Part shown: one piece after another, positions 3,525 to 44,139 of the stretch
How the letters are laid out: each line of letters starts with the position of its first letter
How positions within the stretch are numbered: the first letter of the stretch is position 1
From: Bombyx mori
Lineage: Eukaryota > Arthropoda > Insecta > Lepidoptera > Bombycidae
Assembly: GCF_030269925.1 (NCBI RefSeq)
Contig: NC_085112.1
Coordinates: 8,805,501 to 8,869,500, forward strand
Length of the DNA stretch: 64,000 nt
Reading direction: 5' to 3'
Notes under the pieces: model-generated
Seen by the model: the letters and a program-made list of their open reading frames with translations, nothing else
Databases searched by the model: none
What the model was told of the DNA's origin: nothing
Program-made: the position numbers and the translations under genes

Positions 3525-6500
3525 ATGAGCGCTAACGATATTTATCCTAAGTGTACATTTTCCATGCTCAAAGGTAAAATCGACTGTAGAATTCTTTCTA
3601 CGTTAAGACAAATGGGGTTTCAAAGACCTACACGTATCCAAGCTCAGGCAATGCCCTATTTATTACAACAGAAGGACCTTATAGGTGCAGCTAAAACAGG
3701 AAGTGGAAAAACATTAGCTTTCTTAATACCTGCTGTAGATCAACTTATTAAACTTGGATTTACACTAAAACATGGTAAGTGGAATTATATTTAATCAATA
3801 GTTATTTGGGAAGGTATTTCGGAAGGTAGATAAAGCTTATGATAAAAGTACTATTTTACCTTTCCTGGGCCTGGGGATGAAAAGGATTTTGTTACTTCCC
3901 TCTCATTCATATGTAGTAGTAGTATCCTTCATCCTTTCATTTACTGTTTCATTTGCATTTGCATTTTATTATTAATGTCTTTATGTAGTACTAGATATGC
4001 CCAGTAGTATATAGCAAACCAGTAAATAATATGTTCATATTTATTACAGCAGAAATACCCACTGTTGCTTTGGTCATATTATTTACCATGATAAATAGTA
4101 TCCATGTTATTATAACACAGGTTATAAACTATCCTTACAAGGTGGACGGCGCATTTACGTTGTGAATGTCTATGGGCTCCAGTAACCACTTAACACCAGA
4201 TGGGCTGGGAGCTCGTCCACTCATCTATGCAATAAAAAAAAAACTAGCTAAATTTTATCCAATTTTGTTTAGTCTTTTTAAGTGATTAGGTAACAGACAT
4301 CGAAATATATAAACTTACATTTTATAATGTTAGTACTATAATATTTACATTTTTTTTTTGTTATGCATCAATTCTTTTTTACTACTTGCTATGTATAATT
4401 TGATTATCCTTGGTATCTTCTTAGCTATATACAATCTTTAAACATAACTATGGATAGCTAATGGTTTTCTTGAAAACAAAAATAATAAGTAAAATAAAAT
4501 CCAAACCTCATTTTCATGACTACAATTTTACATTTTGAATACTAACAACTGTGAGCCTATTCGGCTATTATTTGATGAGAAAATAAACAATAGTTCAGAA
4601 AGGAGATGCTTGGTGCTAATGCTGTTGTCACTATTTACTTAAATTAAAAAGTGTAAAAGAATCCCATAGCATATTAAACTTCATCGGCTAAGTGAATTTT
4701 AGGTACAGGTTGCATCATTCTATCTCCAACAAGAGAATTAGCTCTGCAGACATTTGAAGTACTAAAGAGACTCTTGACAGATATTGATATTTCACATTGC
4801 TTGATTGTTGGAGGTGAGAAAAAAAATAAGGATGTGTCCAAGCTACAAAAAGGTGTGTAAAGATTTCTTATTTCTAGAATAATAGAAATACATGAAAAAG
4901 TCGTTCAGATGTAAAATAAGTATATTGGTTGACATTTTTAATATTTTTCAATATGAGCTGAGCTATTAGTCCACCCTATGTTATGAATCTATTAAAGTCA
5001 TACACGAAAATGTCAACTGATAATTACTCAGAACATTAATGCAAAAGCATTAACCCTTAAATGCTTTAAAATAAAAGATGTAGACAAATAATGAACAATG
5101 TAACCATTCCATATTACATAACGTAGTAAACAAATTCTGTTTTAAAGGATAAGATACCAAACCTATATCGAATGATGCAACCATGCAAATGAGGAAATGT
5201 CTGTTTTGAAATTCTGCAGGCAGGTATATTATAGGTATATTATATAGGTAAATTCTGCAGTCATACCAATTTTTCTAATAAAAACGCACATACAAGTGTC
5301 CAAAATGCTTCTCTCAATTTTTATTTTATTTTAGGCATGAATATTGTAGTGAGTACTCCTGGAAGACTTCTTGATCATTTACAAACCACAAACACATTTA
5401 ATTGCAAAAATCTGAAATGTCTTATAATTGATGAAGCTGATAAACTGTTAGAATCTGGCTTTGAAAAGCATGTAAATGGAATACTGGAAAAACTTCCAAG
5501 TAAGTACATGTTTTTTGTATATTTCATCAGCCTATTTTTACCTCATAGAAACTATGTTAGTCATAGAAAGGTGGTTGGTAGGTATAGTAATATATATTAT
5601 TATGCTCAAATGCACCTAAAGAGCTTGAGCTCTCCATCCCAGAAAAACGAACCTATTCACTGGTATAGTCATAAGCTTCGATCAACAATAGTAACTAGAT
5701 TTCGGGTCGGTGCATAAAATCCGTCTCGTCAAATAACAGCGCACTTGAAATGTGAGCTCTTATTTTGTTTAGTTCACTTCAAACACAGCCAATGTCTACC
5801 CGTCTCACAATACCGCAGTGTGTTCAAAAGTTGCAAAAATAAGGCCCGAAAAAGCAATTTAACGGCCGGAATATCTTACTTTCGGTAAGTACATGAAGTA
5901 TAAACTATATTGTAAGCTTTAAACTTATAAATAATATTAAACTTTGAACAAAATTACCGATTTTTAACCACCGCTACAAATGTTGGCCAAGGCTCGGCCA
6001 ACACATGGACAAACTTTTGCTTAACAGAACAATAAATGCATGGAGTAGATTTGTGTTGTAATAATTTTTTTAAATTTGTTAGCAGCACTTCAAAATTAGT
6101 TGGTTAAAATTGGTTAATGCTGCTTTTGTGTCTGTTTGTTGGACTCTCATTAGATACTTAGCTTTGCATTTTTATTTTAGCTTTCCTAGCAATCACGTGT
6201 GCAGAATGGATCTCGATTGTCGCCAGAGAAACAAGAGATGACTTTTATAAGCCAGCTAATATCTCCGTTTATTGACACTGGACATCTTTGCCTTCCGTGC
6301 TCACGGCTACTGAAACGTGGCCGAAACATTGTAATAAAAATACCACGCTTGAAACCGTTTAAACGTTGTTTTATTATGTGCACTGGTCGCGAAAACTTAA
6401 AAATATATATTACACAAAAACGTAACGCTAATAAAATAATAAGTAATGTATAGATACTAACAAACATACATTTCCAAAACATAAAAAGTAAACAACTAAA

Positions 6501-15236: not shown

Positions 15237-15315
<79 letters not shown>

Positions 15316-27300: not shown

Positions 27301-27630
27301 TATAAAAATCATCCACTGAAGAGTATTTTTAATATCAAAAATCTGAATCTACAGTTGGCATCAAAAGCCTTTGGATTTGATGAAACGCCTCATGTCGATT
27401 TCTGTATCCTTTTTTGGCATTTACCTACCTTGGGTTGATAGAAGTTATAAAATAAAGTTGTTTTACCAAATTGAGTGTTAGAAGATTAACATAAAATACA
27501 TAGTTATCGGAAGATTACAATAAACTTAAAATGCTAATTGCCTTTTAAAGTATTTTCATAGTATTATATTTTTAAAATTTTCTTGTTAAACAGTAATTCC
27601 TTACATATTATTTCAGTACGTTCTAAATGA
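3525..27630 (+). CDS. Diverged DDX18-family DEAD-box RNA helicase, paralogue A
   Basis: Nine exons: 3525-3774, 4703-4852, 5335-5499, 21555-21696, 23414-23576, 24770-24922, 25373-25540, 27226-27403, 27617-27630 (1383 nt, 460 aa). All introns are GT-AG and every phase matches. An in-frame TGA at 3516 sits just upstream of the ATG, so the long N-terminus of DDX18 is absent. Helicase motifs are complete: Q motif (Q39), AAKTGSGKT (56-63), [17 protein letters not shown] (166-169), SAT (197-199), ARGLDIP and HRVGRTARG (345-353), followed by the DDX18-type C-terminal alpha-helical region. DDX18/Has1 proteins are ATP-dependent helicases of 60S ribosome biogenesis in the nucleolus; whether this copy kept that role is unknown. 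Intron 3 is 16,055 bp of transposons. AATAAA at 27699. It looks functional, with no stop codon or frameshift. Confidence 0.88.
4139..4243 (+). repeat. Bm1-type SINE, 3' fragment in intron 1
   Basis: It carries the last ~100 bp of the family, from ggtggacggcgcatttacg to gagctcgtccac and an A-rich end. Strongly 5' truncated. Confidence 0.8.
5500..7623 (+). other. Start of the 16-kb intron 3, no recognised content
   Basis: AT-rich intronic DNA. Frames of 84-98 codons overlap on both strands at 6186-6482 but show no family signature. I see no clear repeat boundaries here. Confidence 0.4.
7624..7735 (-). repeat. ~110-bp poly(A)-ended interspersed repeat
   Basis: Inverted copy: a T-run then gtaggcagacgagcatacgg, through to aagccgctgtctacc. 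Other copies are at 22238, 43341 and 52493. It has cut a mariner transposase remnant. Confidence 0.75.
7738..8065 (+). pseudogene. Tc1/mariner (maT-like) transposase remnant
   Basis: Translation gives the transposase C-terminal block [20 protein letters not shown] (from about 7785), followed after a small insertion by a [20 protein letters not shown] C-terminus and a stop. A frame change lies just upstream, near 7755-7780. The gene is broken by the repeat at 7624-7735, by that frameshift and by a 32-bp LINE tail near 7880-7912. The [12 protein letters not shown] signature is typical of the catalytic third motif region of this superfamily; the maT assignment is inferred. Confidence 0.75.
7880..7912 (+). 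repeat. 32-bp LINE 3' tail inserted in the mariner remnant
   Basis: The phrase ctctcaaggctatcag plus cttaggta and an A-run matches the extreme 3' end of the LINE tail at 26408-26671. The mariner frame reads through on both sides of it, and a short tgag flanks the piece on each side. Confidence 0.6.
9434..11602 (+). CDS. R1-clade ORF1 (Gag-like nucleic-acid-binding protein)
   Basis: 722 codons. The N-terminal half is Ser/Lys/Glu-rich and low in complexity. A helical, Glu/Leu-rich segment of coiled-coil type lies around residues 225-285. The C-terminal part has two clear CCHC zinc knuckles ([14 protein letters not shown] and [14 protein letters not shown]) and a third Cys/His cluster. In R1-clade elements ORF1 binds the element RNA and helps form the ribonucleoprotein. 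The stop TGA at 11600-11602 overlaps the ORF2 start ATG. An upstream start is not excluded, but this ATG opens the longest frame. Confidence 0.88.
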   Translation: MKMSSLQRVIPQEGTRQAGESLRTTDSSVVRSPSYSGGGTNCTEIRSGKDGVKKGAGSLKDISRKNESAKDVVAIGSVKDSEGRSSGTALVSDDSMATAGSAHSSARSSPTRRQRKRVLTISSDELGSSSGSDGAASTGKGGVMPQSKRGRGRLPTTGLTVDKQTCLKTQRSEIKATGSMSSMREVRSAKATEGSSKKDPECRLKESAAMALKVCSKPGNLKSTYQRALKELAVTIMEVTEELANRPAAQETERLRAVNAGQQEEILQLRQELQEVRKELARISRALTLSNPVETPAPASSNTTEDQEELRVQRIMRAVGTMVDARFASLEMRLPPEPRIRPPLAADRRKTCEKSPDPPLIVDATLESTSVQAALPPSANKKTQGPRRKTTVLAPLSELGAFPPAPVVLTESWSTVTRRGAKSRGKVVKTAAAVPPEEKAPSSKKRTKKRLRAPRSQAVVLKLQPEAASRGLTYRSVLAEARAKIDLESLGIPVQRIRSSLTGAKVLVVDGDDQVEKADLLANRLKEILPAEGVEISRPSVTAAMRISGLDDSVSREEITDELAKIGGCPSESIKVGEIKSGPGGMGQVLVRCPVSTAAKIAAVPKLRIGWSVLRAHLLEARRLQCFRCHELGHVSARCPSSVDRSRDCYRCGQAGHVASGCSLAPHCTVCVSAGRPADHVSGGKACAKPPRQRQRRQDFATLESARSRPGMASATPMDAQS
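11599..14784 (+). CDS. R1-clade ORF2 (endonuclease / reverse transcriptase)
   Basis: 1061 codons. Residues about 1-225 form an APE-like endonuclease: the QGNLNHS start, [17 protein letters not shown] and SDHRY carry the Asn, Glu, Asp and His active-site positions. Reverse transcriptase follows (about 430-720): [35 protein letters not shown] and the catalytic YADD near residue 670. The C-terminus has a Cys/His finger ([18 protein letters not shown]). The enzyme nicks the target and primes cDNA synthesis from the nick. The frame is unbroken, so the copy could be competent. ORF2 begins inside the ORF1 stop (ATGA), which suggests translation by termination-reinitiation. Confidence 0.92.
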   Translation: MTDVLRVLQGNLNHSARAQDLLFQSMVEGLTHLAVVAEPYRVLTGPDWAADLDGRVAIIRRGCVGAPPEFAVVERGRSFVAVLWAEMIVVGVYFSPNRTLAEFEGLLLELSRVTGRSHSRQLLVLGDLNAKSSAWGSSRTCPRGRAVEEWLVESGLVILNRGTEFTCVRRLGGSVVDVTFASPDVACRIRGWAVMVGEETLSDHRYIRFSIVVTPGAVSTSSFFGGGAEGPRWAQKRLDVERLHEAAVVQAWRLDSLGEPMDVRVGAERMREAMSRVCDAAMPRIRALAPKRRVHWWTEEIANLRQSCNVSRRAYQRSRRRRTHRDPEEQDRLYVVYRTAVRALCVAIGMAKEAAWNDLLASLDRDPWGRPYRLARNALRPWAPPTTSTLPPETLHRVVGGLFPDSSGTAFVPPVMATVQVADGGELEGVSQAEFKAVVAKMRSKRTAPGPDGLSSKAWALALTEDGLGPALRRLFSKCLREGRFPEPWRTGRLVLIPKDGRPRDEPSGYRPIVVLDEAGKLLERIVAGRLVQHLENIGPNLASNQFGFRRGRSTVDAVLRVRDLTDQACSGGGVLLAVSIDIANAFNTIPWSTIMESLRFHRVPTGLRNLIEDYLSGRAVVFPERSGWGRKTVSRGVPQGSVLGPLLWDIGFDWVLRGANLRGVEVVCYADDTLVTARGDDYRSAAILAVAGVATVVSRIKRLGLEVALHKSEAVCFHSAREGPPQGANLVVGGVTIAVQPKLKYLGLVLDSKWRFDHHFKMLVPRLMGTAGALTRLLPNTGGCSAGIRRLYLGVVRSMALYGAPVWSPALTARNAALLLRAQRALAVRVIRGYRTISQDVACALAGSLPWDLEAEILAATYRRRRQSSTREQTPGPSVVDRWRHAARGLAYAKWRERLLEELGRTSATRQRTLEALVPVLEAWSDRRHGELSFRLTQVLSGHGCFGRYLWRVCRREPHPGCHQCGHPNDDAQHALEACPRWEHPRRNLVAVLGQDLSLRAIVARMVEDRSSWEAMAGFCDLVMALREAEEREREWDPSSAPQRRRRGGRRVREAAAQPS
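14799..14842 (+). promoter_or_regulatory. Perfect 20-bp hairpin just after ORF2
   Basis: Arms 14799-14818 and 14823-14842 are exact reverse complements around the loop agcc, starting 15 nt after the ORF2 stop. The stem is GC-rich and should be very stable in RNA. Its role is inferred: a 3' UTR structure for template recognition, or for translation or stability. Confidence 0.8.
15370..15554 (+). repeat. Helitron-like 3' fragment
   Basis: It ends gcgggcaagtacggctag followed by T, resembling the CTAG-T terminus and preceding short hairpin of lepidopteran Helitrons. The 5' boundary is unclear. Class assigned from memory of family ends. Confidence 0.45.
15658..16425. mobile_element. hAT deletion derivative (caagggcggatccag family), 768 bp
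   Basis: The termini are caagggcggatccag and, inverted at the right, ctggattcgcccttg. A perfect 8-bp duplication ccaatatc flanks it (15650-15657, 16426-16433). It retains a fragment of transposase coding sequence. Two shorter relatives are at 43767 and 50761. Confidence 0.9.
15788..16021 (+). pseudogene. hAT transposase C-terminal (dimerisation) remnant
   Basis: A 77-codon frame containing [29 protein letters not shown] and a basic tail. This is the conserved hAT C-terminal dimerisation block seen in many hAT and zinc-finger MYM-like proteins. The catalytic part is gone. It lies entirely within the hAT derivative 15658-16425, which confirms that element's superfamily. Confidence 0.75.
16836..17080 (+). 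mobile_element. Short Helitron-like element
   Basis: It begins tctctatatataaaaatg after an A and ends gccgggtcagatag before a T, with the internal phrase gaacggctgaaccgatttgg. This matches the layout of small non-autonomous lepidopteran Helitrons (5' TC, 3' CTAG-like, insertion between A and T). The last four bases are ATAG, not CTAG. Confidence 0.6.
17205..17404 (+). repeat. Bm1-type SINE, 5' truncated
   Basis: Typical body from cctatttctgccgtgaagc to gagctcgtccacc, ending in an A-run. It lies in intron 3 of helicase A. Confidence 0.85.
18041..18148 (-). repeat. Bm1-type SINE 3' fragment
   Basis: Inverted 3' end of the family, immediately before the CR1/Rex-like LINE. Confidence 0.8.
18192..20557 (+). 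mobile_element. 5'-truncated CR1/Rex-like LINE
   Basis: An RT-bearing frame is followed by a 300-bp 3' UTR that ends in ttgaat repeats (gattttgaatttgaatttga) in place of a simple poly(A). Such short-repeat tails are usual in the CR1 group. The 3' UTR carries the cgccgg hairpin motif also seen in other LINE tails of this window. The endonuclease region is missing. The left boundary is approximate and no target duplication was found. Confidence 0.75.
18223..20250 (+). CDS. LINE reverse transcriptase ORF2, endonuclease missing
   Basis: 675 codons open to TGA. It starts in the linker between endonuclease and RT, so the ATG is probably an internal methionine. RT motifs: [67 protein letters not shown] and catalytic FADD near residues 399-402, then the thumb/C-terminal region. 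No frameshift or premature stop in the RT. Because the endonuclease is lost, the copy cannot be autonomous. The Jockey/CR1 superfamily is clear; the exact clade is inferred. Confidence 0.85.
   Translation: MGKRVDCEAIALIDGYRILSYNTVGIHKSRQRLYDLYHEKSYNHNKSFHEYVCKYSKLFKKVCTLAKSLHLGKLIKNAPDKIKMTWNIINRETGNVRNSNAESILKINDQIITSHQEVASAFERYFADIPASTTKSLISSPTVAESLLQDHVDECSVNFKFTNIAIKDIIDNFKTINIKKTGDLWGISIKVIKSIIDIIAPYLATIFNDCIYNGVFPDLMKYSKIIPLFKSGSTFDPTNFRPISVLPTLSKIFEKIILEQLLNHFYSNNLLHNKQYGFTRGRSTIDAGVDLIKNIFQAWEESHNALGVFCDLSKAFDCVEHNTLLRKLHHYGIRGVSLELIKSYLSGRIQKVDVKGKRSSGVLLNMGVPQGSILGPFLFLVYINDLPKFIETRHEVVLFADDTSLLFKIKRQLEDYDDVNDAISRVVHWFSVNNLLLNNKKTKCIKFTTPNVRQVDTNIIVSGETLELVDSTVFLGITVDSRLQWGPHICKLANRLSSAAFAVKKIRTYTDEDTARLVYFSYFHSVMSYGILLWGNAADVETIFILQKRAIRAIYNMHPRESLRDKFKEIKILTLASQYIFENLLYVRKNIVEFPRVCDLHNVNTRNKHRLALPAARIKKISNSFRGLGVQLFNKIPQNVQLLPVHRFKKTVKERLCNKAYYKVKDFLLDGTTWE
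20558..20870 (-). repeat. LINE 3' tail, inverted
   Basis: A T-run at the left, then GC-rich sequence with acccactgaaaagatccgac and agtgggct, the reverse of the hairpin in the tail at 26483-26516. No coding sequence recognised. Confidence 0.6.
21043..21105 (-). repeat. Short second copy of the same LINE tail
   Basis: A T-run then agtgacctcgaggggtcatg, closely matching the start of the tail at 20558. It ends after about 60 bp. Confidence 0.5.
21845..22040 (-). repeat. Degenerate Bm1-like SINE
   Basis: Diverged match to the inverted Bm1 body: acaacgtaaatgccgccat and cctttcaaaccagaatgc. An old copy. Confidence 0.5.
22238..22355 (+). repeat. ~110-bp poly(A)-ended interspersed repeat
   Basis: From ggtaggcagcggcttggctc to ctgcctacaaggacaata and an A-run. 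Same family as the copies at 7624, 43341 and 52493. Confidence 0.75.
22806..23264 (+). repeat. Bm1-type SINE interrupted by an R1-clade tail
   Basis: The SINE body 22806-22990 resumes at 23162 and runs to the A-rich end at about 23264. The break carries a 17-bp duplication ggtgggtggcgcattta at 22974-22990 and 23162-23178. Confidence 0.88.
22991..23161 (+). mobile_element. 5'-truncated R1-clade retrotransposon 3' end
   Basis: About 150 bp of 3' UTR with ggagtccgacataacccgg and gggtatccgta, homologous to 15080-15239 of the full-length R1-clade element but clearly diverged, plus a poly(A) run. A 17-bp target duplication in the host SINE flanks it. It is probably a sister family. Confidence 0.85.
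24053..24150 (+). repeat. Degenerate Bm1-like SINE
   Basis: Diverged body: agtaatgcatttcattctga, then cctcatatctcaaaat. An old copy in intron 5 of helicase A. Confidence 0.4.
24946..25269 (+). repeat. Bm1-type SINE, lacking only the tRNA-like head
   Basis: It starts at gttcacgattcacttccacg and runs through the whole body to the A-rich end. It begins about 25 bp after the exon 6 donor of helicase A. Confidence 0.87.
25570..26329. repeat. ~760-bp element with terminal inverted repeats, class unknown
   Basis: The left end gtatatgttacggtaaa is the exact inverse of the right end tttaccgtaacatatac. Near the ends are several direct copies of a ~17-bp unit of the type aaatgtacactcttgcc. No coding sequence. 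It lies in intron 7 of helicase A. Confidence 0.6.
26408..26671 (+). repeat. LINE 3' tail with poly(A)
   Basis: A GC-rich, non-coding block containing a 9-bp hairpin (26483-26491 with 26508-26516), gtgagctcacctac, ctctcaaggctatcagcata and a terminal A-run. It is probably a 5'-truncated LINE copy. Its final 30 bp recur at 7880. Confidence 0.65.
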
Positions 27631-28690: not shown

Positions 28691-31600
28691 TCAACTGATC
28701 GTTTTCTTATTGTTCCCCTTTTGTCTGTATATTTTCGTTTTATCTGTCTTCCTTTTGAAATCGGATGGAGCGTTTAAGGACTTGAAGTATCCATAACCAC
28801 CACCTCCCTTTCTTTTCTGTGGAGGTCCTTTGTTTGCGACTTTTAGTTCTACAGCGGGCGGTACATTGAAACCAAATGATTTCGATGCCTTAGCTAAATC
28901 GATTGTATCAATGTCAAAAATCGTTTTCAAGTGATGAGAATCATAGGCTCTCAGGTAACTTTTGAAGGCTTCTTTTGCAGATTGATTCAGGAAATAGTTT
29001 CGAGAGATAAGTTTTTCTAGCTGTAATATCAAATTCAATTATTTGATAAATCAAGATTAATTAATTATTTGACAAATAACACAAATATCAGCGACTTATG
29101 TCAAGACTTTTATCTTTATATTAATTCAGCAATAAGTAATTAAAATGATAACATTTTAAATTAAAATTTGCAGTTATCATGGCATAAAGAATACACCCTG
29201 TGCACACTTATCGAACGATGCTACTATGGCCATTTTCAAGCTGATACAAATTTATTTTTGTTCTCAAGAGCACAGAATGAGCTGTGAGCATGTTTTAATA
29301 CATTAAAATAAGAACACACATAAAAATAAGACAGACCTGTAGTTGTATATCTGCAACTTTATTCCATGAGAATTCAAATTCGTTTAGGGTAACTCTCGAC
29401 TGCTTTAAGTATCGTAAGAATCCAAGCTCTTCTGGACGTAAGAATAACAAAGCGTGTCCACTAGTTCCTAGACCCCTCGCAGTTCTTCCAACCCGATGGA
29501 TGTATTCCTACACACAGATAACAAGTACAATAAATAAATGGCATTATATTTTTAAAACTGTGAAAACATTTTGTAAAAGGCTTTAATAAAAGAAAAGTTA
29601 CTAGTCCGCAAACAATAGATCAATATGGTATTTTTGGTTTGATGGAATGACTGAAACAAAAATAAAATGGTACGTAGTGATAAATGTACCATCATATCAA
29701 GGGATGAATGGTATATGGTTTAAACGACATTTTTGCAATTTTACAGGAGAACCATTTAAAGTTTAAAATTTGGAAAAAATACCATTATAAATTATTATTT
29801 TTCAGCTATTTGAATGGAGTAAACTTAATTGATGTTCAATTAAAAACATCGAACTGGTGGTAGGACCTCTTGTGAGTTCGCGCGTGTAGGTACCACCACC
29901 CTGCCTATTTCTGCCGTGAAGTAGTAATGCGTTTCGGTTTGAAGGGTGGGGCAGCTGTTGTAACTATACTGAGACCTCAGAACTCATATCTCAAAGTGGG
30001 TGGCGGCATTAACGTTGTAGATGTCTATGGGCTCCGGTAACCACTTAACTCCGGGTGGGCCGTGGGTTTGTCCACTCATCAATGCAATACAAAATAAAAA
30101 CAAAAATAAATAAAGCGGACCTTTAATTACAAAGATAAATGTTGCATATTAAGTGAAATGTCGCTTAAACCAAATATTCGGTCACCCCTCTATATTATGA
30201 ATCGTACAAGTGGGTATCATCTTACTGCCTATTTCTACAGTAGAACAATCATGTCTTATGGGTAGGACACTCGTTTTGAAATACAATAAAGATTTTGGAT
30301 CCCGTGTCTTAAAGTAGGGATGGTGGCATTCACATTATGTCGTTGGTCCTGAAGCTCTGTTGACTTTTAAATACAAGCACAAAGTAAACACAAGAATGTT
30401 GAATGATATATTTGTTCTTTCGACTCTTTAAGTAAATTTAAATGGTACTAATATTTAGATTATAAATAAATATAAAGGCTAATTTATATAATATTTAGGT
30501 TTTTAAGACGATGTAGCTTTAATTAATAAACACAAATTTGAAGACAAATCTTAAATGCATTTTTTTTATTGCTTAGATTGGTAGACGAGCACACAGCCCA
30601 CCTGGTGTTAAGTGGTTACTGGAGCTTATAGACATCTACGACGTAAATGCGCCGCGCACCTTGAGATATAAGTTCTAAGGTCTCAAGTATAGTTAAACGG
30701 CTGCCCCACCCTTCAAACCGAAACACATAACTGCTTCACGGTAGAAATAGGCAGGGTGGTGGTGCCTACCCGCGCGAACTCGAGGTTCTACCACCTCACC
30801 TTTGGATCCTTACCTTTGGATCATCTGGAGGATCATACTGTACAATCCAATCAACGGCCGGAATGTCCAGACCACGCGCCGCGACATCAGTACAAAGTAG
30901 TATACCAGATTCAGCATTGCAAAACTGGAAGAATGTTGTTGTACGCTTCGTTTGTTGTTGTTTTCCCTACATGAAGAAAAAATTAAACATAATTATATAT
31001 TAAACATAATTATATAATAATATATATAGACGCGTATTCAACACTATTGTCTTTGTTTGTGGAAACATACAAAGATACACTGAGAGATGAACACATTTTT
31101 AATTAAAGTATAAAATTATTATTGCATTTAATTTATCGGGTGATAAATCTGCCTTAGCCAGTTTTGGTAAACCAACTAAGACTAACAATTTCTATTTTAT
31201 AGATTGGTATCTTTAGTGAGATTATTGATAGTTTGGCAACACAATAAAATGTAGCTTAGGTGAAGTACTCACATGTATGGACATCACAGGAAGGTCAATA
31301 TAATTGAAAAGTTCATGGTGGTATTTGACAGACATACAGGTTGAAAAGAATACCATAACCTTCTTTTTTCTATTCTTCTTAAGGAATGTGAATAAAACCA
31401 TCATACGTTTCTCTGATGGGCATACGATATATCTGAAATAATATTCCAAACTTTAGTTTTAAAAAACATACTATTTAAATGATTATAAATGATTAATAAA
31501 TAATTGTTTGAATTACACAAACACTAGAAATCGGAATACCAAGGTTCCATAAACTTCATTTGTTGATTGCATCTAAAATATTTTATTTTTATATTTTATG

Positions 31601-34600
31601 TTTATCATGATGATTATTTACCCCTGTTCTAAACTATCAACAGTTGCCTGTTCTCTGTGGTCATCAACCCCAACATACACGGGTTCATGCTTCAATGCCA
31701 AAGCAGTTAGTGCTTCAGTCTTCTTTGTTTGTGTAGCACTGAATAACATAGTTTGCCGGCGTTCTGTAAATATTTGCAAATGCATAGTAAACTTTCGTTT
31801 TTATTTATTTTATAAACAAACTAATCACGAGTACGTATCAGAGTCAAAAAGGATCTTTAGCATAATAAGAGTATGTTCCTTTAAGTGTCAGAGTAATTTG
31901 AAAAATGTGAAGAGTCCTTTACACCAATCAAATAAATTGCTAAGCAGCCTCTTATTTTATAATCAAATAGTTTCATCTAATTAACATCAACCGTAAAGGG
32001 GATTGCCCACTCTCCATAGTGTGCTAGGCCCAAGATGGACATCAAATATTACTATAAAAATGTACTGATTCAAATTCTTAAATGTATTGGATATCTAAAA
32101 ACTATATTGAAATTGACGCCACTATTATAAAAAATAGAATAAAAATAAAAACTCGTTTTGAGGTTAATTTTCTATATAAATAAGTGTCGGATTGTGAGAT
32201 ACTTCAAGAACTTTTCTTTTCTTAATGTTTAAGATGTTCCTAATGTATTTTTATCCAATAGGGTATAAAAACACACTTAATTCTTTAAATATCTATATTT
32301 TCTTCATCTTCATACACAATTAGTATCATCTTAAAATAGCAAAGGAGAGCATAGTTTTATGCTGAGAGAGCACGGTTTTAAATCTCGGTCAGGGTAAAAC
32401 CACAATTCACACAATGTTTTTTAGTCGTAGTATGAAACGTTATTGATAAAAGTATAATAAAATACGAAGAAAAATCAAAACACATCCATTTTGTACGCAA
32501 GCACAACACCACAAGCAGCAAGCGAAGTGTCAGTCAGTCAGATTAAATTCAGTGTTGTCAGTATTAAGAAAAATAATTACATGAAATTCATATATCGATT
32601 ATTTTTTTAAATAACCGATAATTGATTTATATCTTAATCTTTTTTTTACGAGTACACATTATTTTTTATGTTTTTGTTTTAGTTGTACATATTTAAATAA
32701 TAATACTAGTAAAGTTTTTTTTATTGCTTAGATGGGTGGGCGAGCACACAGCCACCCTGGTGTTGCTAAGTGGTTACTCGAGCCCACATACATCTACAAC
32801 GTAAATGCGCCACCCACCTTGAGATATAAGTTCTAAGGTCTCAAGTATAGTTACAAGTTAAAGTCCAATGGGTATGTCTTTGATGTTATTTTATGTGCAT
32901 AAAATCCATTAAAGTCGTTTGATTAATGATAATACTTAAAATGATTTATTTATATGTTTTATTTATATACTCAAAATATTTACTTCATACGTAAAAGGAT
33001 TTGAAGCTGGTAATATTTTTCCCGCAAAAATAAAAATCCTTGTTTTTTCAATAGAGTTACTTTTTTTAAACTACTTATTGTAAACTATAGTGGCGCTTAT
33101 TTGCAAGAAAGTAAATGCATATTTATTTATGACAAAATTAATGCACTAAGTATTTTTTCTATAATCTAATGTCCACTTTGGGCCTAAAATGGGCCATCCC
33201 CTTTCATACTTCAATTTAGCAATTTTGAAATGAATATTTTTTTTTCTCTAGCTGTCAGCTGGTAGTCTAAGGGGCTATTTCAGCTACACCCAGATGGGTA
33301 GGTCAAGGGTTCAACCTAAGACACTTTGCTAACATTATCCTTAGCAAGAGCAGTGCTTCCCAAAATCTAACACTGGATTGAAATTGAGACCCATTGAAAA
33401 GATCTGTCAAGAAACGCAATGGGCTGTATCTACACTGTGCAATAATTATCACACCATAGAGAAGAAGATTTAATAGTAAATCTTACTTGGCAGCAATTTT
33501 ATGATCTGTTTAACTTCTTCTTCAAATCCAATTTCCAATATCCTGTCAGCCTCATCAATAACTAAGCACTGAAGGTTCTTATACAAGAAGTCTGGTGTAT
33601 TTTGCAAGTGATCCAGTAAACGTCCAGGAGTAGCAACTAAAATGTTGATACCTGTAGGCAAAATGTTTAATAACGATTTTTATTTATAGCTTTATTCAAC
33701 AAATACTGGAACAATATCATCTTAGAGATCCTATTTGATAGTTTATCAAGACAGCAGTATTAACTGTAACTATAATTGAGACCTTCGAACTTATATCTCA
33801 AGGTGGATGGCGCATTTACATTGTAGATGTCTATGGGCTCCAGTAACCATTTAACACCATGTGGGCTGTGAGCTCGGCCATCCATCTAAGCAATAAAAAA
33901 AAACACCTTAGAATTTCAATGAATTTTTAAGGGAAATTTAAAATATATGCATATTTATTCTTAATTGCTTTGTTGAGTCATGAGCTCTTTTATATATTTT
34001 TTCTATTACTATTTTTTGTTGTTTCTGTTATGTAAATAAATATGTATAAAAATTACAGAAGTTTGCAAATAATCTATCTTTTACCTTTAGAGAGTTTCTG
34101 AGCTTCAGTACTTCTGTTTGCACCACCCATTACCAGACCATATGTATGGTGGTGGTATTTCATCAATTCCATGAGAACGCCAAATGTTTGCATTGATAAC
34201 TCTCTTGTGGGTGACAAAATGATGACTCCAGTACCTAAAAATATCTAGTTTTTTATGCAACCCCACAAATGCTTACTTTGGTTTTCTTTGTAAGATATTT
34301 TCAGATATCCATTCTCTGTTCATGTACTGACTCAACACATACTCACAGTGTTAGTACTTAATTAAAAATAAATGTGCCTCGACAGTTTGCACCAGAGACT
34401 CAATTTATCTTTAAATGCATACAAACACCTTTGAAGTCTGTGGTTGTCAAACATTCATATTCGCCTTTTTATCATCATTATATAGCATGTTGAAGACTAC
34501 ATGTAATTTTTTAATGGAATTGATTATTTAAATTTTAAAATTATGAATAACTCAATAAATCACACCAGAGATATAAACATTTTTGAACTTAAATACAAAT

Positions 34601-36075
34601 ACCTACCATTTCTTGGTTTAAATTTTAATTTGTATATAAGGTCTATAGCCGGTATTAAGAATGCTAGTGTTTTTCCAGAGCCAGTTTTGGCAGCACCCAC
34701 AAGATCCCTGCCTTCCAACAAAGGAGGTATAGCTTTAGCTTGAATCTCTGTCATCGTTATAAAGCCCATATCTTTAATTCCTAAAAGAGTTGGTTCGCAC
34801 ACTGTGCCTTCCAGTGCAGTGAATTTTTGATCTGATAGTATACCTAAGCAGAGGCTTGATCCAGGTACTGAAAAATAGTTTATTGTTAACATTTGTTATT
34901 GCTTCTATGAAACTATGCATCCATATAAAAACTACAATTTCGTTTAAAGTTTATTATCCAGAAAACCATAAGTCAATTAATTATATCGATGCTTGAAAGG
35001 CAAACGTGACTAAGCGACAATAACTGCTTTATATATAAATGATAGGCAATAACCATATTTGATGCGAAAAAAATATATATTTCTAGGTCTATTAAAATCA
35101 TTTTAATCCTACAGCTAGATTTGTAAAAATATAAACTTTTTCAGGTATTTCAACTTTAAATTAGTCTACTGTAAAGTTCACGCATTGTCTCTTAGTCACG
35201 TTTGCCTTTCAAGCATCTATATGCTGGATGGTTTATTTATATGACACATGATGTTTTGAAATGTTTTTAATTTAACATATTACAATTGCAATTAGCTCTT
35301 ATTATAACAATTGACTGTCAAGTAATTGTCTTTTTATAGGAGTAGCATTTAAGTAATTAAATATTCTACATAAATGTTGTTTCTAGGTAGGCATTTAGTA
35401 GGGCTATAGCATATTTAGAGCTTACTCGGGGAGATGCCCAGCTGTGAGCACAACCACGTTATCCATTACCACTGCGAAGCTGACACTAGTTCCGATTACG
35501 ACAGTTATTTGAAAAGAAAATGATTATGCAGTACTTACAATCGTTGTTCGATTTTTTTTCCGAATCATCTTCTTTAGTGTCTTGCTCATCTTGAGAGTCA
35601 TCACTAGATTCTTCCTCAGATTTTACTTCAACTGGTTCTTCTTTTAACTCTTCTTTAACCTTTTTCAATTTTTCTGAACACAAGTAAATTGTTATTAAAT
35701 TATAAAATTGGCGTTATTCAATTTTAAAACTCAATTTAATCTGTCTGTCTAACTTACTTTTGGGAACTTTTCCATTTGTGTCACCGTCTTGTACAACTCT
35801 CTTCTTAGCTTCTTTTTCATTATTTAATGCTTCAATATCTATGAATGAGAAATTGAAGAATAACTAAATATATTTCGAATAGGTCAAATTAGGTACTTTA
35901 GCTTTAAAAAACTACGATTAAGATAAGATGTTGACAAACGCTTTTAGTCGTATACGTTATATTCGTTACCTTTTTCTGGTTCAGGATTTGAATCAGTTTT
36001 TTGAGATGTAAGTTTCAGTTTTCGTTTTTCTCGTTTTCTTATTTTTCTGAGAAGTATTTTATCTGGTGTCGGCAT
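28691..36075 (-). CDS. pit: DDX18 / pitchoune (Has1) ATP-dependent RNA helicase
   Basis: Eleven exons on the minus strand: 36075-35970, 35838-35758, 35673-35539, 34867-34607, 34234-34085, 33651-33487, 31763-31622, 31432-31273, 30966-30814, 29507-29337, 29020-28691 (1854 nt, 617 aa). All splice phases agree. The N-terminus is Lys/Arg-rich, then very acidic (residues ~65-105). The core has the Q motif (TEIQAKAIP), AAKTGSGKT (167-174), [27 protein letters not shown] and HRVGRTARG, then the DDX18 C-terminal domain and a Gly/Lys-rich tail ([10 protein letters not shown]). Length and close similarity throughout fit the human DDX18 / yeast Has1 family. That family unwinds RNA in 60S and 40S precursor processing in the nucleolus. 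It is convergent with paralogue A and divergent from paralogue B. Confidence 0.95.
29853..30091 (+). repeat. Bm1-type SINE, headless
   Basis: From actggtggtaggacctcttg to the A-rich end, antisense within an intron of pitchoune. Confidence 0.85.
30200..30335 (+). repeat. Degenerate Bm1-like SINE
   Basis: Old, diverged body copy: tactgcctatttctacagta, then cgtgtcttaaagtaggg. Confidence 0.4.
30561..30795 (-). repeat. Bm1-type SINE abutting a pitchoune exon
   Basis: Inverted copy: a T-run then the body to gaactcgaggttctaccac. It is on the same strand as pitchoune and ends about 18 bp from the exon at 30814-30966, next to a tandem 14-bp duplication across the splice donor. Confidence 0.85.
32715..32859 (-). 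repeat. Bm1-type SINE 3' half
   Basis: Inverted; a T-run then the body as far as ggtctcaagtatagttac. Intron of pitchoune. Confidence 0.82.
33240..33440 (-). repeat. Old LINE tail, inverted
   Basis: Diverged relative of the tail at 20558-20870: tagcaagagcagtgcttccc and a cccattg/caatggg hairpin (33390-33396, 33417-33423) in which one stem pair has changed on both sides. Confidence 0.5.
33764..33904 (+). repeat. Bm1-type SINE 3' half
   Basis: From taactataattgagacc to the A-run; intron of pitchoune. Confidence 0.82.
34988..35217. repeat. MITE, 230 bp, ~33-bp inverted repeats
   Basis: The left end gatgcttgaaaggcaaacgt is the inverse of the right end acgtttgcctttcaagcatc. The arms continue through gactaagcgacaat with one mismatch. 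TATAT is present on both sides. It lies in the pitchoune intron at 34868-35538. Confidence 0.75.
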
Positions 36076-36129: not shown

Positions 36130-36640
36130 ACCATAGACCTTTTTTTGGTACAATTTTTCCTTATTAGGAAAGGCAAGGGGATCTAAGCCCATACAACCAA
36201 AAAACCATAGACCTTTATTACTTTAGTGATAGAAATTGACAGTAGTAGTAGATGTATTTTTCTAATTGGAAAGGCAAAGATGTCATACCATACAGTCTAA
36301 TTTTTCCAGATGTCTACTATGCCGAACTCCGAACAATGATAGCAAAACTTGCAGTGAAACAGCTCATGAATCGACTTTGACTATTATTGCTCCATGATAA
36401 CACGAGACCTCATACAGCACAAGAAACCGTTTAAACTTTACAGGAACTGCAACAAGAAACCATTCGTCACCCTCCGTATTCGCCAGACCTTGCTCCAACG
36501 GACTACCATGTCTTTCGTGATTTGGACAATTTTCTGTGATAGAAAGTTTTCTTCCCAGGAGGCAATATAAACGCTTTCACACAGTTTGTAGAATCTAGGT
36601 CACCAGAGTTCTATCGCAAAGACATAAACGACATTTTTCT
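36130..36640 (+). pseudogene. mariner (DD34D-type) transposase remnant
   Basis: Translation shows LLHDNTRPHTAQETV, then HPPYSPDLAPTDYHVFRDLD and SRSPEFYRKDIN, the C-terminal half of a mariner transposase including the third catalytic Asp block. Stop codons break it near 36434 and 36539. The caaccatagacc-like sequence repeated near 36129 and 36203 may belong to its terminal repeats. It lies about 50 bp upstream of the pitchoune start codon. Confidence 0.75.
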
Positions 36641-37039
36641 TCTCTCGTCTTCTCTCGTCTCATCCAACACCTAAGATCCTTTATCTAATTTAATCCGATG
36701 GCAATACATTCATCTTACTTCACATTATTCCAAAGTTAATTTTATTCCCTTCCATTTTACTTTTCGTACAACAGACTTGGCTTCGGCATTTGTTTTAAAA
36801 GATTTCGGTGGATATAAATCATAGACCGTTTATAAAACGATTTTATGACAATGATGATCTATGACAGTGTTTAATGACTCCAAATGTATTATCTATGCTC
36901 TGGTGGGACTTTTTGGCGTAAATGCGAGGAGCAAAGTTGTGTGAATTGTTTTATTTTATCTCGACTGTAATAAGAGAAAACCTTTAACGAATATAAGGTT
37001 TTAATAAGCTAAAATCTGTTAAAATTTGTTTTGGTTACA

Positions 37040-38016
37040 TTAAAGGTCTATGCAGTAAATGCATTGACAAAAACACTAATAAAACAGATTGACAATGGCA
37101 TCAACTTATGACTGATAGTTTCAAGTAAGAAGTTTACATCAGCGACAATCCGAATGGCCCTCTTCTGTAGAGTGTTAAATGGAAGTAGCTGGTATTTGAG
37201 AGCTCCGGCCCATAGGTGGGAGCAGTACTCCATGCGAGGCCGGACTTGTGCTTTATAAAGCAAAAGTCTTTGTCTAGGCGTGAAGTATCGCTTCGCTCTG
37301 TTGAGGACTCCCAGCATTTTGGACGCCAACTTGGCTTTGCCATCCAAATGACACCGAAACTGGACATCTCTTGAAATGTCGACCCTAAGTAATATCCCGA
37401 TACTCGTAGGTTGTAGGGATACTCCTTGTAATTGCGGCACCATGACAAAGGGGTCCTTCTTCATAGTGAACGCGCAAACTTGTGTCTTTAACGGGTTGAA
37501 TTGAACTAAGTTTGATTCACCCCACTCGGAGACACGCCTCAGAGAGTTCTCCACTTCAGACACAAGCTTAGATCGTCTCTCTTGCACCACGCTTCGAAAA
37601 TGACTCTGATGGCCAATATGTCGCGCATCTCCCGTGCTATCATCTGGATAGCAATGCATACCATCATTAGATAGCATGTTATTGATATAGGTACAGGATG
37701 AAAAGCGTGGGGAAGAGCACCAAACCTTGTGGAATGCCAGCGTTAATGGTCATTATATCTGAGTAGTCACCGTCTAGAACTACCGTGATGCACCGTCCAT
37801 CAAAAGTCTAGCGATCCACTTGCAGAGTCCCTCGATGATTCCGTAAGATGTTAGCTTCGACAAAAGTGCCCTATGCCAGACCCTGTTGAAGGTCTTCGCG
37901 ATATCAAGGCTCACAGCGAGAGCCCTTGCTCTCCAAGGCTTCAGCCCACCTGTGAGTAAGGCATACAAGAAGATCGCTGGCTGAGCGACTGTGAGTGAAA
38001 CCGTACTGTCGGTCAC
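37040..38016 (-). pseudogene. Broken Jockey-type reverse transcriptase fragment
   Basis: The minus strand carries SLDIAKTFNRVWHRALLSKL (from 38016 down), then GIPQG near 37725, a frameshift/stop near 37680, and then CYPDDSTGDA, SLRRVSEWGESNLVQFNP and YKAQVRPRMEYCSHLWAGA. It resembles abundant lepidopteran Jockey elements. The endonuclease is absent, the frame is broken, and the catalytic YADD reads YPDD. It fills most of the space between the divergent pitchoune and paralogue B genes. Confidence 0.85.
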
Positions 38017-38295
38017 TGATCAGCTGACAATCCTCAAGATATCGGCTATATGAGCAATGTTTTCTTTGCCTGTACAATGAACGAATTAAAAATGATGTTT
38101 TTTTAGGTTATGAATTGCTGAATTCTGATGAAGTGATATGAATTTAGAAATAAATAAAGTTTTAAATTCCAGGGATGAACATAAATTTCTGTTTTTATTT
38201 AGCTTAATTTATAGATAATACACTTAATTATAACTGTAGCATACCTTCTTCTTCATGATATATGAAATAAATTTAACGGAAAGAAAAAAAAAATT

Positions 38296-41200
38296 ATGGA
38301 ATCTAAAAAACTTCCCAAATTTAAAGAACTTAAAGAGCAACTCTCTGCAGCTACTTTAAATGCAATCAGAGAGATGGGATTCAAAAGGATGACTGAAATA
38401 CAGGCAGAGGTCCTACCATCAGCGCTGGATGGTAACGATATAGTGGCGACAGCAAAAACAGGCTCAGGAAAAACATTAGCATTTCTAATACCTGTAATCG
38501 AAGTGGTTGCTAAAAACATAGAAAAAGCTATGCACGGTAATGTTTCTTTCTTAATACTTTATTAAATGTTTACAATTTTAAGCTTGCTTCCCAGTTTGTT
38601 ATGCACAACCATCTGCTCTGTAAAATACTCACACCTGATTAATTTCATTTTGATTAATTTCATGGTTTTTCATTGCTGTTCTATATACTCCCTGTTTCTG
38701 AGTGTACCCTATTTAATTGTTTTATTGAGTACTGTACATAATGTAATAATAATCAATTTGTAGTTAACACAAGGCTCCAGCTCTTGGTTTTCTTCCTTAA
38801 TCATTACTAATAGCTGTGGATAATGCTAGGGATACAGCCTGATCTCTGCCTAATTACCTCAATTTTATATATGATTGATTGGATATTATAGGTGGGGCAT
38901 TCACCCATCTATATTGCTCTATACCTATGCACCTATACTGTACTAGGTCTTAAGTGTTGAAACTCATAGATATTACAATATGAACTAGCCACCCTATTGA
39001 TTAATTCATACTAAGAACACCCTATACATGCCTGTGCTGTGGAAAGTGTGTTCGGATTGCCTAATTTGATATCATGTGTAAACCAAAATAAAAGTTAAAA
39101 AATCTACTCTAGGTACGTTTTCCATCATAATTGCACCAACAAGGGAACTGGCAATACAAACATATTCAGTCTTACAGGAGTTGATCAATCATCATAATAA
39201 AATCACATCAACTTTAGTGATTGGTGGAGAGAGCAGAAAAAAACAGAGCTCTGATCTTGTTCAAGGCAGGTAACAAATAAAAAATTTAACTTGATATAAG
39301 AAAGAAATTATTGACAGTTTCAACTTTGAAATACTTTTTTTAATAAAGACAGACTAAAAAACAAGTAAACATCTTTTGAAATGTTACTTAGAATGTGTTG
39401 ACATGTATTTAAATAATAGAAAAATTTTAGGTATGCATATTGTTGTAGCCACACCAGGTAGATTATTTGATCACATGAGAACTAAAGAGTTTGATTACAA
39501 ATGTGTCAAATGTCTTGTACTGGATGAAGCTGATAAAATATTTCAATATGGTTTTGAAGAAGATCTAAAACAGATAATTAATCGGTTACCAAGTAAGTTA
39601 AATTTTTATTGATTTCCTGTAAATATTAAATACTGTAACTGTGTATCTTTACTTTATTTTACTTTTTTATTGTTTACACGTGCAGCATTTTATCTATACT
39701 TACCTACCTAACATCTGTTGCACCTAAATATAACTCTTTATTACAGGTGGGCTGGTATTCTTCTCCATTAGGCCTGAAGTGCAGTACAGATAATGTTTTT
39801 ATTTCTCTAATTCTACAGAAATCACAGCCCACCTGATGTTAAGCAATTGTGGGTGCTAATAGACAACACAATTGAATGCCACCCAATATGTCTTGTAAAT
39901 GTGAGGTCAGTTTCATTTGTACCTATAATTATTGTTCCAATCCAGAACGAACATCTGCCTAAGAACAAAAATTTCCTAATACTACAGAGGTTGATGTTTG
40001 CAGTAACTACTAGTTTATGTAATTCCATCTGTGTTAAAAAATAAAATGGGTACTGAAATCGCATCATTCATATTTCAGAGGATAGGCAAACAATGCTTTT
40101 CAGCGCAACACTTTCTGAGAGAACTGATGCTCTAGTGGAGTCTGCCATGAAAAAAGACAAGATACAACATATCAATACTGATCAGGATGACCTGTGTGCT
40201 ACAGTGGAAGGTTTAAAACAGGGGTTAGTAAACAGTAATTTTGAGTGCAGTTAGTAGAATTCTAATAGTACATGTCTGTTGTATACTGCATATACCTCCC
40301 ATTTGAGCGTTTTAAAACAAGTTTATGTGTGTACTATTGTGCCGTCCATATCTATGACAAATGAAAAACTATATCTAACATGAATAATTGTGTTTAGTAG
40401 TGATTATGTTTGGCAACATTTATATTAATATATTTTATTAAATTTGTAATGTCCTTAATTAGTTAGTTTGAGGGTCCACAAAAAAGGCTTTTTATATGAA
40501 TTTTATATATAAATAATATTCATTTTTATGTTTGTAGTAAGCTTTAAAATAATTTGTTTTCTCCTTTGTAGATATGCTGTGTGTCAAACCCAGTATAGAT
40601 TGTGGTGGTTACATAAGGTGCTGAAGAAAACAAAACAATTCAAAGTTATGGTATTTTTTTCGAGTTGTAAATCTGTTGTGTTCCATTACGAATTCTTTCA
40701 GAAATACTGTCAAATGAACGTTTTGTGTATCCATGTGAGTATTGGAAACATTTTTGCTACCAGTAACCAACTAACTCCCTTTTTTTTTGGGCCGCGGCCT
40801 TACCCCCTACGAGGTCCCCGCGCCTAGGGGGCCCGCGGGCGGGGTATGTGGGACTGGTCCGCGACTGCGAAACCGCGGGCCCAAGAATGTTTTCCGGACC
40901 CTACCCACTAAACATGCGGTGTCGTATGTCTCAATTGTATAGAAATTACTAAATTATAATTTTTACGGGGCTGAGTTTTTATTACATGGAGTTATTATGG
41001 AAGTAATTTGTGTCAGTGGGATATTAACACTAGCATAGTCGCATCGCTCCGTCTGTACATGCTAGGCATCTTATCTTTTAGGTTATAATGTCTTCTCTGA
41101 TCAAGATAATTCGTTTTTGCCCCTTAAAGGTGCTAGCTCTCATCGTCTCTCCAATGATCAGTATCTTGGATGACAGAAAATATAAAAAAACAGTATAATT

Positions 41201-44139
41201 TGTTAAAATTCATTAAATGAACTTCTTACATACTTACTCTTCTTTTTATTTAAAATTATAAATTAAAATGTAGGTCACTTATAACTAATTTTGACGCAGT
41301 TTTTTTTACCATAATCATACCTTTTTGTTTGTCGTTTATTTCATTAACCGGTTATTAAAATATTCCTATTAATGTCGAAACGATTTCTGATATTCTTGAT
41401 ACGTTTAGCCATTGCAGTGTAATATTTGCTTTCAGGGTAAAATGAACCAAACCGATAGAACAGCAACCATCAATATATTCTATGAAACAGAAAATATAGC
41501 GTTATTCTGTACAGATGTTGCGGCAAGAGGATTGGATATACCGGCTGTAGATTGGATAGTCCAGTTCGATCCACCTGGTGATGCAAATGTTAGAGGTTTT
41601 ACTTCAGTCTAAATGCAGTACCTATATCATACATAGTCATAGTCTTCTACTAGAAGCTAACTAATATACACCAATTTATATTAGATAGTTACCACCATTA
41701 TGTAAAAATTGAAACGCTTTATAAAAATAGATGTGTAAGAATAGATAAGGGTGGAGCAGCTGTTGTAACTATACTTGAGACCTTAGAACTTATATCTCTA
41801 AGTGGGTGGCTCATTTACCTTAGGGATGTTTATGGGCTCCAGTAACCCCTTAACATCAGGTGGGCTGTGAGCTCGTCCACCTATCTAAGCAATACGAAAA
41901 AAAAGAAAATAAACTTAATATCTATAAAATAGGATAGAAGTAGTAATACATTTTGAACACAGCAAACAAGGCTGCTCCAAGCCAAAATAACGCGCTGAAC
42001 AACACACCAGAATCCATGTTTAGGCCAGTGGGCCGCGGCGGACATCCCGTGACCACCAAATAGGTCGAGCTGCCATTTGACGTCTCTCGGAAAGTAATGA
42101 ATTGGTAGTCACTGTTGCCGCAAGTCACACATTATTTTTGAGTTATGGCAATATTTACGAAACAACACCTCAACGGGGGTGGAGGCGAAAATATGCCGTG
42201 AACACGTGATGTCCCTCATGGTGTTTAGCGTGTTAAAGATTTTCAGTGTGCTTAATGCGAGTTTTTTTAACGTTCTCGGTAGCGTAAAAGTTAACTCCAA
42301 ATTTGTATGGAGTAGGAACAGCGCGTCTAGCGGCAGACGTTAGGCAAAACTCACACTAAGCACACTGTTTTCAATTTGGTTAGCGGCAATTATTGTTCGC
42401 AGTATTTAAATTTATGAAATAAATTTTTAGGAATACATTCACAGAGTGGGCAGAACGGCGAGAGGTTTGGGTGCTGATGGTAATGCAGTTTTACTTCTAA
42501 GACCTGAGGAAGTGGGTTTTGTGGATTACCTGAAGGAATCTAAAATATATGTAGATAAATACGAAAGCTGGGATTCTTATTATAATTTACAAAAAAAGGT
42601 ATTAAAAAAATACTAAGTACGCATGTTAAAATCTTGTATGAAGTGTGAATAATTAATGACGTTAAAAAAAACAATTTAAAGTCATAATAAAACATATGTA
42701 ATTGTATAAAAAAACAGGTTGCCTTCGAATTTATAGCTAATTCGTTTTCAAAAGTTTTCAATGTAATGATTATTAACATATTTTTAAATCTAAGATCGAA
42801 TCGATTTGTGGTAAACTTGCTTATTGGATCATCATCATCATTCTCCTGCCCTTCTCCCAGTCACCTCGGGTCGGCGCAACATGTTTTCTCCTTCCGTACT
42901 CCTCTATCATATACCATTTCTTTGCTCACTCCCCTCTTACACATATAGTTTTTCACACAACCTTACTTATTGGATGTGAATGTTTATTTTATTTATATTA
43001 TTCTAGTTGGATACGGCAATGTCTGATTCTAATTTCGTAAACTTAGCGATTGAAGCATTTGAGGGATATGTTAGAGCGCTGGAAGTCAGAAAGCTAAAAC
43101 AGATATTTAATTTGTTGACAATGGATCTAGACGTTTTAGCAAGATCTTTTGGTTTAAAAGAAAAGCCTGATGTTGATATACGTAAGTGTCTAAAATTTGT
43201 ATTTATTGTTGTCTAAAATTACCATGTTAAGCTAATCAGGTGATACTATAGCCCTGCTTATCCACTGCTAACTTTATTTCTTTTAATGCTTACCTCCTTC
43301 CTTAATCACTATTGTTTGATTTAATTAAAAACTGGGTTTACGGTAGGCAGTGGCTTGGCTCTGCCCCTGGCATTGCTGAAGTCCATGGGCGACGGTAACC
43401 ACTCACCATCCGGTGGGCCGTATGCTCGTTTGCCTACAAGGGCAACAAAAAAAAAACTGGGTACTCATTTAACTTAGTTGGCGGCAGAAAATCTTTTGAA
43501 ATAATATCCAAATGCCCCTAAAGTTAAACTTTCTTTGTTTACACTACTTAATTCGAGATGCTATTTTGAATAATATATTTGTCATAGACTTTTAACGATT
43601 AGTATCAGGACGATTTTTTCTTTGAATCTGCTCTTCTATTCACGATTTCATCAAGATTAAAAACTATTTGGGTATGTTATTTTTAAAGTGAGCTAATGTT
43701 AATGCTCACTGTAATCTTTTTATTTATTCAATTAACTCATATATTTCATTAAAATCTCCCAGTAGGCAACGGCGGATCCAGGGGGGGTCATGACCCCCCC
43801 CCCCCCCCGTGCTAGTTCCAGGACTTGAACTAACTTGGACTAATTGAAGAACATCATGATTTATTTATTATCTATTGTTATCAAAATTAAATTATAAGTT
43901 CTTAACTTGCCCACGACTATGTGACCCCCTCCTGGCGCCAAAGCTGGATCCGCCCTTGCCAGTAGGATATTTATTTGTACGATTTATTGAATTTTTTTTT
44001 ACTACACATTTACTATTTGACTGGTTATAAATTTTTTTAAATATTTTCAGGCATAGGGTTTAGTAAAAAACATCGACCAAGGAAAAGAATGGCAGCGATT
44101 TTAGCTTCCCAAAGTGACACAAAGAAAGCTAAATCATGA
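38296..44139 (+). CDS. Diverged DDX18-family DEAD-box RNA helicase, paralogue B
   Basis: Nine exons: 38296-38536, 39113-39265, 39431-39592, 40079-40223, 40572-40734, 41436-41588, 42431-42598, 43007-43181, 44051-44139 (1449 nt, 482 aa). An in-frame TGA at 38263 precedes the ATG, so the DDX18 N-terminal extension is missing. Motifs: Q36 of the Q motif, [13 protein letters not shown] motif I at 53-60 (AKTGSGKT), [27 protein letters not shown] and HRVGRTARG, then the DDX18-type C-terminal region and a basic tail ([10 protein letters not shown]). Intron 2 appears to be GC-AG; the others are GT-AG. AATAAA at 44159. Function probably involves RNA remodelling; a role in ribosome assembly is inferred from family only. 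It converges on the BTB gene 250 bp away. Confidence 0.88.
40781..40930 (-). repeat. GC-rich LINE tail, inverted
   Basis: A T-run then very GC-rich sequence. On the minus strand it carries cataccccgcccgc, also present in the tail at 54018. Intron 5 of paralogue B. Confidence 0.55.
41748..41906 (+). repeat. Bm1-type SINE 3' half
   Basis: From gggtggagcagctgttgtaa to the A-rich end. Intron 6 of paralogue B. Confidence 0.82.
41922..42128 (-). CDS. Small membrane-protein-like ORF in an intron, hypothetical
   Basis: 68 codons on the opposite strand to the host intron. A polar N-terminal half with one Cys-Pro-Pro segment is followed by a hydrophobic helix at about residues 43-62 ([20 protein letters not shown]), like a tail-anchored protein. 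The surrounding 300 bp are richer in G+C than the intron. I do not recognise the family. It may be a chance frame, an insertion remnant or a small nested gene. Confidence 0.22.
   Translation of the reverse strand: MTCGNSDYQFITFRETSNGSSTYLVVTGCPPRPTGLNMDSGVLFSALFWLGAALFAVFKMYYYFYPIL
42243..42373. repeat. MITE, short member of the 2638 family
   Basis: It begins cagtgtgcttaatgcgag and ends ctcacactaagcacactg, its near-perfect inverse. Intron 6 of paralogue B, just before exon 7. Confidence 0.7.
42830..42965 (-). mobile_element. RTE-clade LINE tail
   Basis: The same 3' end as 27843-28195: an atg microsatellite tail and the C-terminal KTCCADP region. It is 135 bp long. A 10-bp duplication cttattggat (42820-42829, 42966-42975) flanks it. 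It ends 42 bp before exon 8 of paralogue B. Confidence 0.8.
43341..43451 (+). repeat. ~110-bp poly(A)-ended interspersed repeat
   Basis: From cggtaggcagtggcttggct to tgcctacaagggcaac and an A-run. The flanking direct repeat aaaactgggt shows insertion by retrotransposition. Confidence 0.78.
43767..43958. mobile_element. hAT deletion derivative (caagggcggatccag family), 192 bp
   Basis: The termini are caacggcggatccag and ctggatccgcccttg. A perfect 8-bp duplication ccagtagg (43759-43766, 43959-43966). Last intron of paralogue B. Confidence 0.9.

Follow-up and report, generated by a model that had tools for sequence, protein, structure and literature searches.

Organisation of the locus

The window analysed here is a stretch of 64,000 nucleotides (contig 6, 8805501-8869500) of the 461.7 Mb Bombyx mori assembly, in which a motif scan detected three sets of DEAD-box motifs. 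The spliced models of the three genes, called A, B and C, were made with splice sites chosen by eye. Gene B, on the minus strand (36075..28691), is pitchoune/DDX18 and encodes a protein of 617 amino acids in 11 exons, equal to the Bombyx mori pitchoune record P0234 at 617/617 residues. Two diverged paralogues, encoded on the opposite (plus) strand, flank it; both are shorter than pitchoune and both have orthologues in other species. Gene A (3525..27630) encodes 460 amino acids in nine exons: 3525-3774, 4703-4852, 5335-5499, 21555-21696, 23414-23576, 24770-24922, 25373-25540, 27226-27403 and 27617-27630. Gene C (38296..44139) encodes 482 amino acids with a conserved basic tail, also in nine exons: 38296-38536, 39113-39265, 39431-39592, 40079-40223, 40572-40734, 41436-41588, 42431-42598, 43007-43181 and 44051-44139. 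A and B are convergent, with 1060 bases from stop codon to stop codon, and B and C are divergent, with 2220 bases from start codon to start codon.

The third intron of A (5500..21554, plus strand) measures 16 kb and is enlarged by retrotransposon sequence. It contains a retrotransposon at 9386-14784 (plus strand) with frames of 738 aa (zinc knuckle) and 1079 aa (endonuclease, reverse transcriptase), and, at 18184-20250 (plus strand), a further frame for reverse transcriptase with 688 aa. Another retrotransposon, at 57086-61681 on the minus strand, has a first frame with PRE_C2HC (569 aa) followed by an endonuclease/reverse-transcriptase frame (961 aa). With regard to a role as snoRNA host, the Rfam search gave no snoRNA match; its two matches belong to microRNA families, mir-2807 at 2680-2771 and mir-2822 at 57510-57576, both on the plus strand. 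Since the latter lies antisense within a retrotransposon frame, it is doubtful that it is a true microRNA gene.

Both flanking genes are transcribed. Gene A agrees with P0001 at 454/460 residues (6 differ) and gene C with P0121 at 479/482 (3 differ). The source contigs of these records (1451 nt and 1594 nt, respectively) are too short for the introns, so that both were taken as spliced transcripts, and their source tag lgn suggests assembled sequencing reads. P0121 fixes the last exon of C and also the unusual donor of its second intron (39266..39430, plus strand), a GC-AG intron with donor gcaggt at 39266 and acceptor ttttag, across which P0121 and P0122 both read DLVQGMH. P0122, a further Bombyx mori record of C, is without 28 residues around motif IV. 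Exon 5 of C (40572-40734, plus strand) has an internal GT after KVM, and the residues missing in P0122 come right after it; an isoform of C without part of motif IV may therefore exist. A lack of transcripts, named beforehand as an argument against a local family of three DDX18 genes, was thus not what we found.

Introns and mode of duplication

Seven core introns are found in identical columns of the A/B/C alignment (194, 245, 300, 348, 403, 454 and 511) in all three genes, with phases 1, 1, 1, 2, 0, 0 and 0 in each of them. This bears out the conserved intron architecture of the original prediction. An eighth intron, C-terminal and of phase 1, follows VDF or VDI in A (27404..27616, plus strand) and, equivalently, in C (43182-44050), and is absent from B. 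That position and phase are common to A, B and C speaks for copying at the level of genomic DNA, and retroposition is excluded.

Comparison of the three gene regions at DNA level gave 31 matches, six of them from exon to exon and 25 due to non-exonic repeats. Among the latter, 24 have at least three copies in the window and one has two copies, which lie at non-equivalent places. As only repeats match outside the exons, the duplication must be old. The segmental duplication that had been proposed consequently holds for the copying of intron-bearing DNA; beyond the exons, no similarity survives except for the repeats. A, B and C each carry a copy of one repeat in corresponding introns (A 25033-25278, B 30556-30795, C 41747-41904), which might have been left over from the duplication. 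This idea was rejected, as the repeat family has 16-17 copies in the window, and the three copies are probably independent insertions.

Family membership and phylogeny

DEAD, Helicase_C and CTE_SPB4 (former DUF4217) domains were detected above the curated cut-off in all three genes, C being scanned minus its last 29 amino acids. Against sequences in the PDB, A scores 501 bits with DDX18/Has1 versus 220 with the next family, and C 456 versus 198; the best PDB match of B is human DDX18 (core only). Identity of A and C to B, and between A and C, is 49-53%. In a tree that included seven further DEAD-box frames of Bombyx, the 20 DDX18-type rows stood together on one side (support 93/87, not starred). 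Within that tree A, C and canonical DDX18 formed an open fork, canonical DDX18 being set apart at 94/99. Both the PDB scores and this tree place the flanking genes in the DDX18 family, as originally predicted, and a position within other DEAD-box families did not appear.

DDX18 is, to our knowledge, otherwise single-copy. A genome search with C alone as query, in which the best candidates were scored, gave as top match outside the window a helicase frame on contig 23 with 38% identity. This frame was rejected as a fourth copy: it is DDX10-like, scores 322 bits over 219 residues with the solved DDX10 domain and is placed outside DDX18 by the tree. Judged from the best candidates of this search with C, a further DDX18 copy in the Bombyx genome is unlikely.

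In a tree of 110 rows (31 A, 29 C, 23 B and 27 others, truncated rows and isoforms having been removed by hand) A, C and B each formed one group, with a support for A of just 66. This tree placed within A the record P0046, a relative of A of 459 amino acids that lies outside the species named here. In a later tree P0046 was sister to all A on a long branch, with support of 84/81 for A alone and 100/100 for A plus P0046. A more careful tree of 56 rows, from which it was omitted, gave support of 100/100 for A, 100/100 for C, 100/99 for B and 100/99 for A plus C, and long branches meet in this tree. AU tests on the placement of A plus C gave p values of 0.185 for A+B+C, 0.49 for A with B and 0.09 for C with B. 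Taking these and the leave-out runs together, the junction of A and C with the rest of the tree stays unsettled. That A and C lie next to B and have introns in common with it speaks for pitchoune as their ancestor; a more ancient DDX18 branch that survived solely in this group may also be the source of the two genes.

Orthologues in other Lepidoptera

The original prediction could be followed into other Lepidoptera, where the cluster is present and A and C form a pair of Lepidoptera-wide clades. Among the best 120 of 7990 matches of A, rows from Lepidoptera come first, about forty of them and ranging from Plutella to the butterflies, followed by canonical DDX18; C shows the same pattern among its best 120 of 7992. 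In eleven species (Pectinophora, Amyelois, Dendrolimus, Chilo, Epargyreus, Galleria, Maniola hyperantus, Bicyclus, Danaus chrysippus, Battus and Plodia) A, B and C are on contigs of equal printed size, a count made by eye and limited by the use of cluster representatives and by differing assemblies. Short contigs carry A and B together in Operophtera (113,664 bases) and Leptidea (239,275), and B and C together in Danaus plexippus (263,047) and Helicoverpa (434,193). Locus tags are consecutive in Dendrolimus (006708 for A, 006709 for B and 006710 for C), as well as in Loxostege, Tuta, Helicoverpa and Plutella. There are, however, counter-cases: C of Achroia is on a contig apart from A and B, and A of Plutella apart from B and C. 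The printed contigs of cluster genes also differ in Manduca, Papilio machaon, Pararge, Tuta and Leptidea, often across assemblies. As judged from these sequences, A and C have orthologues across the ditrysian Lepidoptera and are retained next to pitchoune. This lepidopteran expansion is real and conserved; in the literature outside subscription papers no title describing the three-gene DDX18 cluster was found, so that it appears to be undescribed.

Conservation of the paralogues

The first three exons of B are absent from A and C, and so is its N-terminal charged extension. The glycine/basic tail of pitchoune is present in B and absent from the two paralogues; both extension and tail were taken as typical of DDX18/Has1, not as defining. 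Median lengths are 463 for A, 484 for C and 617 for B. C carries a tail of its own, GFSKKHR[PQ]RKR, which recurs in all 14 printed C rows, and with this conserved stretch of 11 residues C is predicted to be nuclear.

Between species the median amino-acid difference is 27.0% for A, 26.0% for C and 3.2% for B (18 species each), which means that A and C change about eightfold faster than B. This change is unevenly distributed. Motif sites invariant in canonical DDX18 are kept at 59/60 in A and 58/60 in C, whereas the other canonical-invariant sites of the core are kept at only 97/156 and 95/156 (Fisher p 4e-9 and 1e-8 against the motif sites). After the core, 31/52 and 28/52 canonical-invariant sites are kept. 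A set of 15 residues, plus GG, is invariant in 31/31 A rows and 29/29 C rows; motif I, Ia or Ib is varied in a few A rows. Canonical sites changed in both A and C number 59 against 26.2 expected, an excess that can be explained by shared ancestry alone. For the Bombyx A/B/C pairs, synonymous sites are saturated and dN/dS values are uninformative. The predicted structures are confident (mean pLDDT 84.2 and 82.0) and have an ordinary fold. In a Foldseek search with the predicted model of A, sorted by E-value, the top matches were DDX18/Has1 chains, human and fungal, from pre-60S particles.

Possible functions of A and C

Yeast Has1, as described in two papers (PMC9196750, PMC6846684), has two separable activities: its catalytic activity is used at 90S/18S sites, and on the pre-60S particle its part is mainly docking and largely ATP-independent. 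Intact motifs together with a relaxed remainder would fit a protein that kept the first activity and partly lost the second. Going by gene structure, transcripts and motifs, A and C belong to the DDX18/Has1 family, are old and transcribed, are catalytically complete as far as their motifs tell, and were born as intron-bearing copies beside pitchoune. The reading that we prefer, tentatively and with a probability of roughly 45%, joins these points: A and C would be old transcribed copies of DDX18 which kept the ATP-driven activity and lost part of the pre-60S docking. B would retain the entire canonical DDX18 job. A and C, whose intact motifs are proposed to mean that the ATP-driven RNA-clamp cycle is retained, would have been freed from much of the constraint of docking to the pre-60S and would now remodel other or fewer RNPs. 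They would thus be working ATPases with RNA remodelling retained and 60S scaffolding lost. Against a loss of docking it can be said that relaxed change outside the motifs is expected for any fast-evolving DEAD-box protein. The resemblance of the A model to DDX18/Has1 chains of pre-60S particles also means that a 60S role may be possible.

A different role for at least one paralogue is suggested by an RNAi screen in Sf21 cells (PMC4247154). According to Table 1 of that paper, knock-down of a helicase of the "DDX18/HAS1 subfamily" relieved siRNA silencing of gfp with 61.54% reversion; the identities reported for this factor are 74% to Bombyx, 53% to Tribolium and 52% to Drosophila. We computed the same three identities for Spodoptera litura and obtained 73.5, 51.7 and 51.8% for A and 76.0, 52.8 and 52.9% for C. 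For B of two noctuids, Helicoverpa and Mythimna, they are 88.2 and 86.1% to Bombyx, 72.7 and 71.7% to Tribolium, and 64.6 and 64.0% to Drosophila, D. mojavensis serving in this comparison as a stand-in for D. melanogaster. The reported values match A or C and widely exclude noctuid B, and we propose that the screened helicase is a paralogue rather than pitchoune. Database names point the same way, several A orthologues being called DDX18, while most C and B orthologues are called pitchoune. That A (or C) is a cofactor of small-RNA silencing is nevertheless doubtful. In that screen 42 of 80 candidates scored as factors, a high hit rate, and the best of three siRNAs was reported per gene. Competition between siRNAs on co-transfection, or general sickness of the cells, could also relieve silencing; a scrambled siRNA control is mentioned in the paper. 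A silencing function of A or C is consequently a lead and not a result.

The original prediction had proposed tissue- or germline-specific ribosome assembly, with A and C as DDX18 isoenzymes for demanding tissues. Paralogues of house-keeping genes are frequently tissue-restricted, and membership of the DDX18 family with an intact enzyme core agrees with such a role. We regard it as unlikely, as a like-for-like isoenzyme would not predict an eightfold faster change. A brain microarray lists a "DDX18" gene at the pupal stage, the available text not stating which copy (PMC3032748). Less probable again, and speculative, is a split of DDX18 into one conserved gene for ribosome assembly and two fast-evolving helicases with catalytic activity, of which one or both would have come to serve in small-RNA silencing or defence; if true, this would account both for the speed of change and for the result of the Sf21 screen. 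That the two paralogues are in decay or could be dispensed with, as their fast change, the GC donor in C and the P0122 isoform might suggest, is very improbable given open frames and near-complete motifs in 31 A and 29 C rows and the Bombyx transcripts of both genes.

If the preferred reading of retained catalysis and reduced docking is correct, one or two duplications of an essential helicase of ribosome assembly took place in an ancestor of the moths and butterflies, and pitchoune has since kept two catalytic offshoots at its side. The two jobs of Has1 are difficult to separate in one gene, and such a natural split would allow their dissection. Lepidopteran annotations of "DDX18" and "pitchoune" would then mix three proteins and a published RNAi factor may be assigned to the wrong one. 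How well RNAi works in Lepidoptera is a matter of practical interest.

Comparison with known helicases

A and C resemble DDX18/pitchoune/Has1 in carrying DEAD, Helicase_C and CTE_SPB4, their closest PDB sequences being DDX18 and then Has1. They differ from it by the missing N-terminal extension and canonical tail, and in being an extra pair beside B. DDX10/Dbp4 is represented by the contig 23 frame, the nearest helicase elsewhere in the Bombyx genome and one with a similar C-terminal extension (38% to C); unlike A and C, it is a single open frame. The Sf21 RNAi factor agrees with A or C in its reported identities. The paper (PMC4247154), in the part available, treats it as a homologue of pitchoune/DDX18 and mentions no paralogues.
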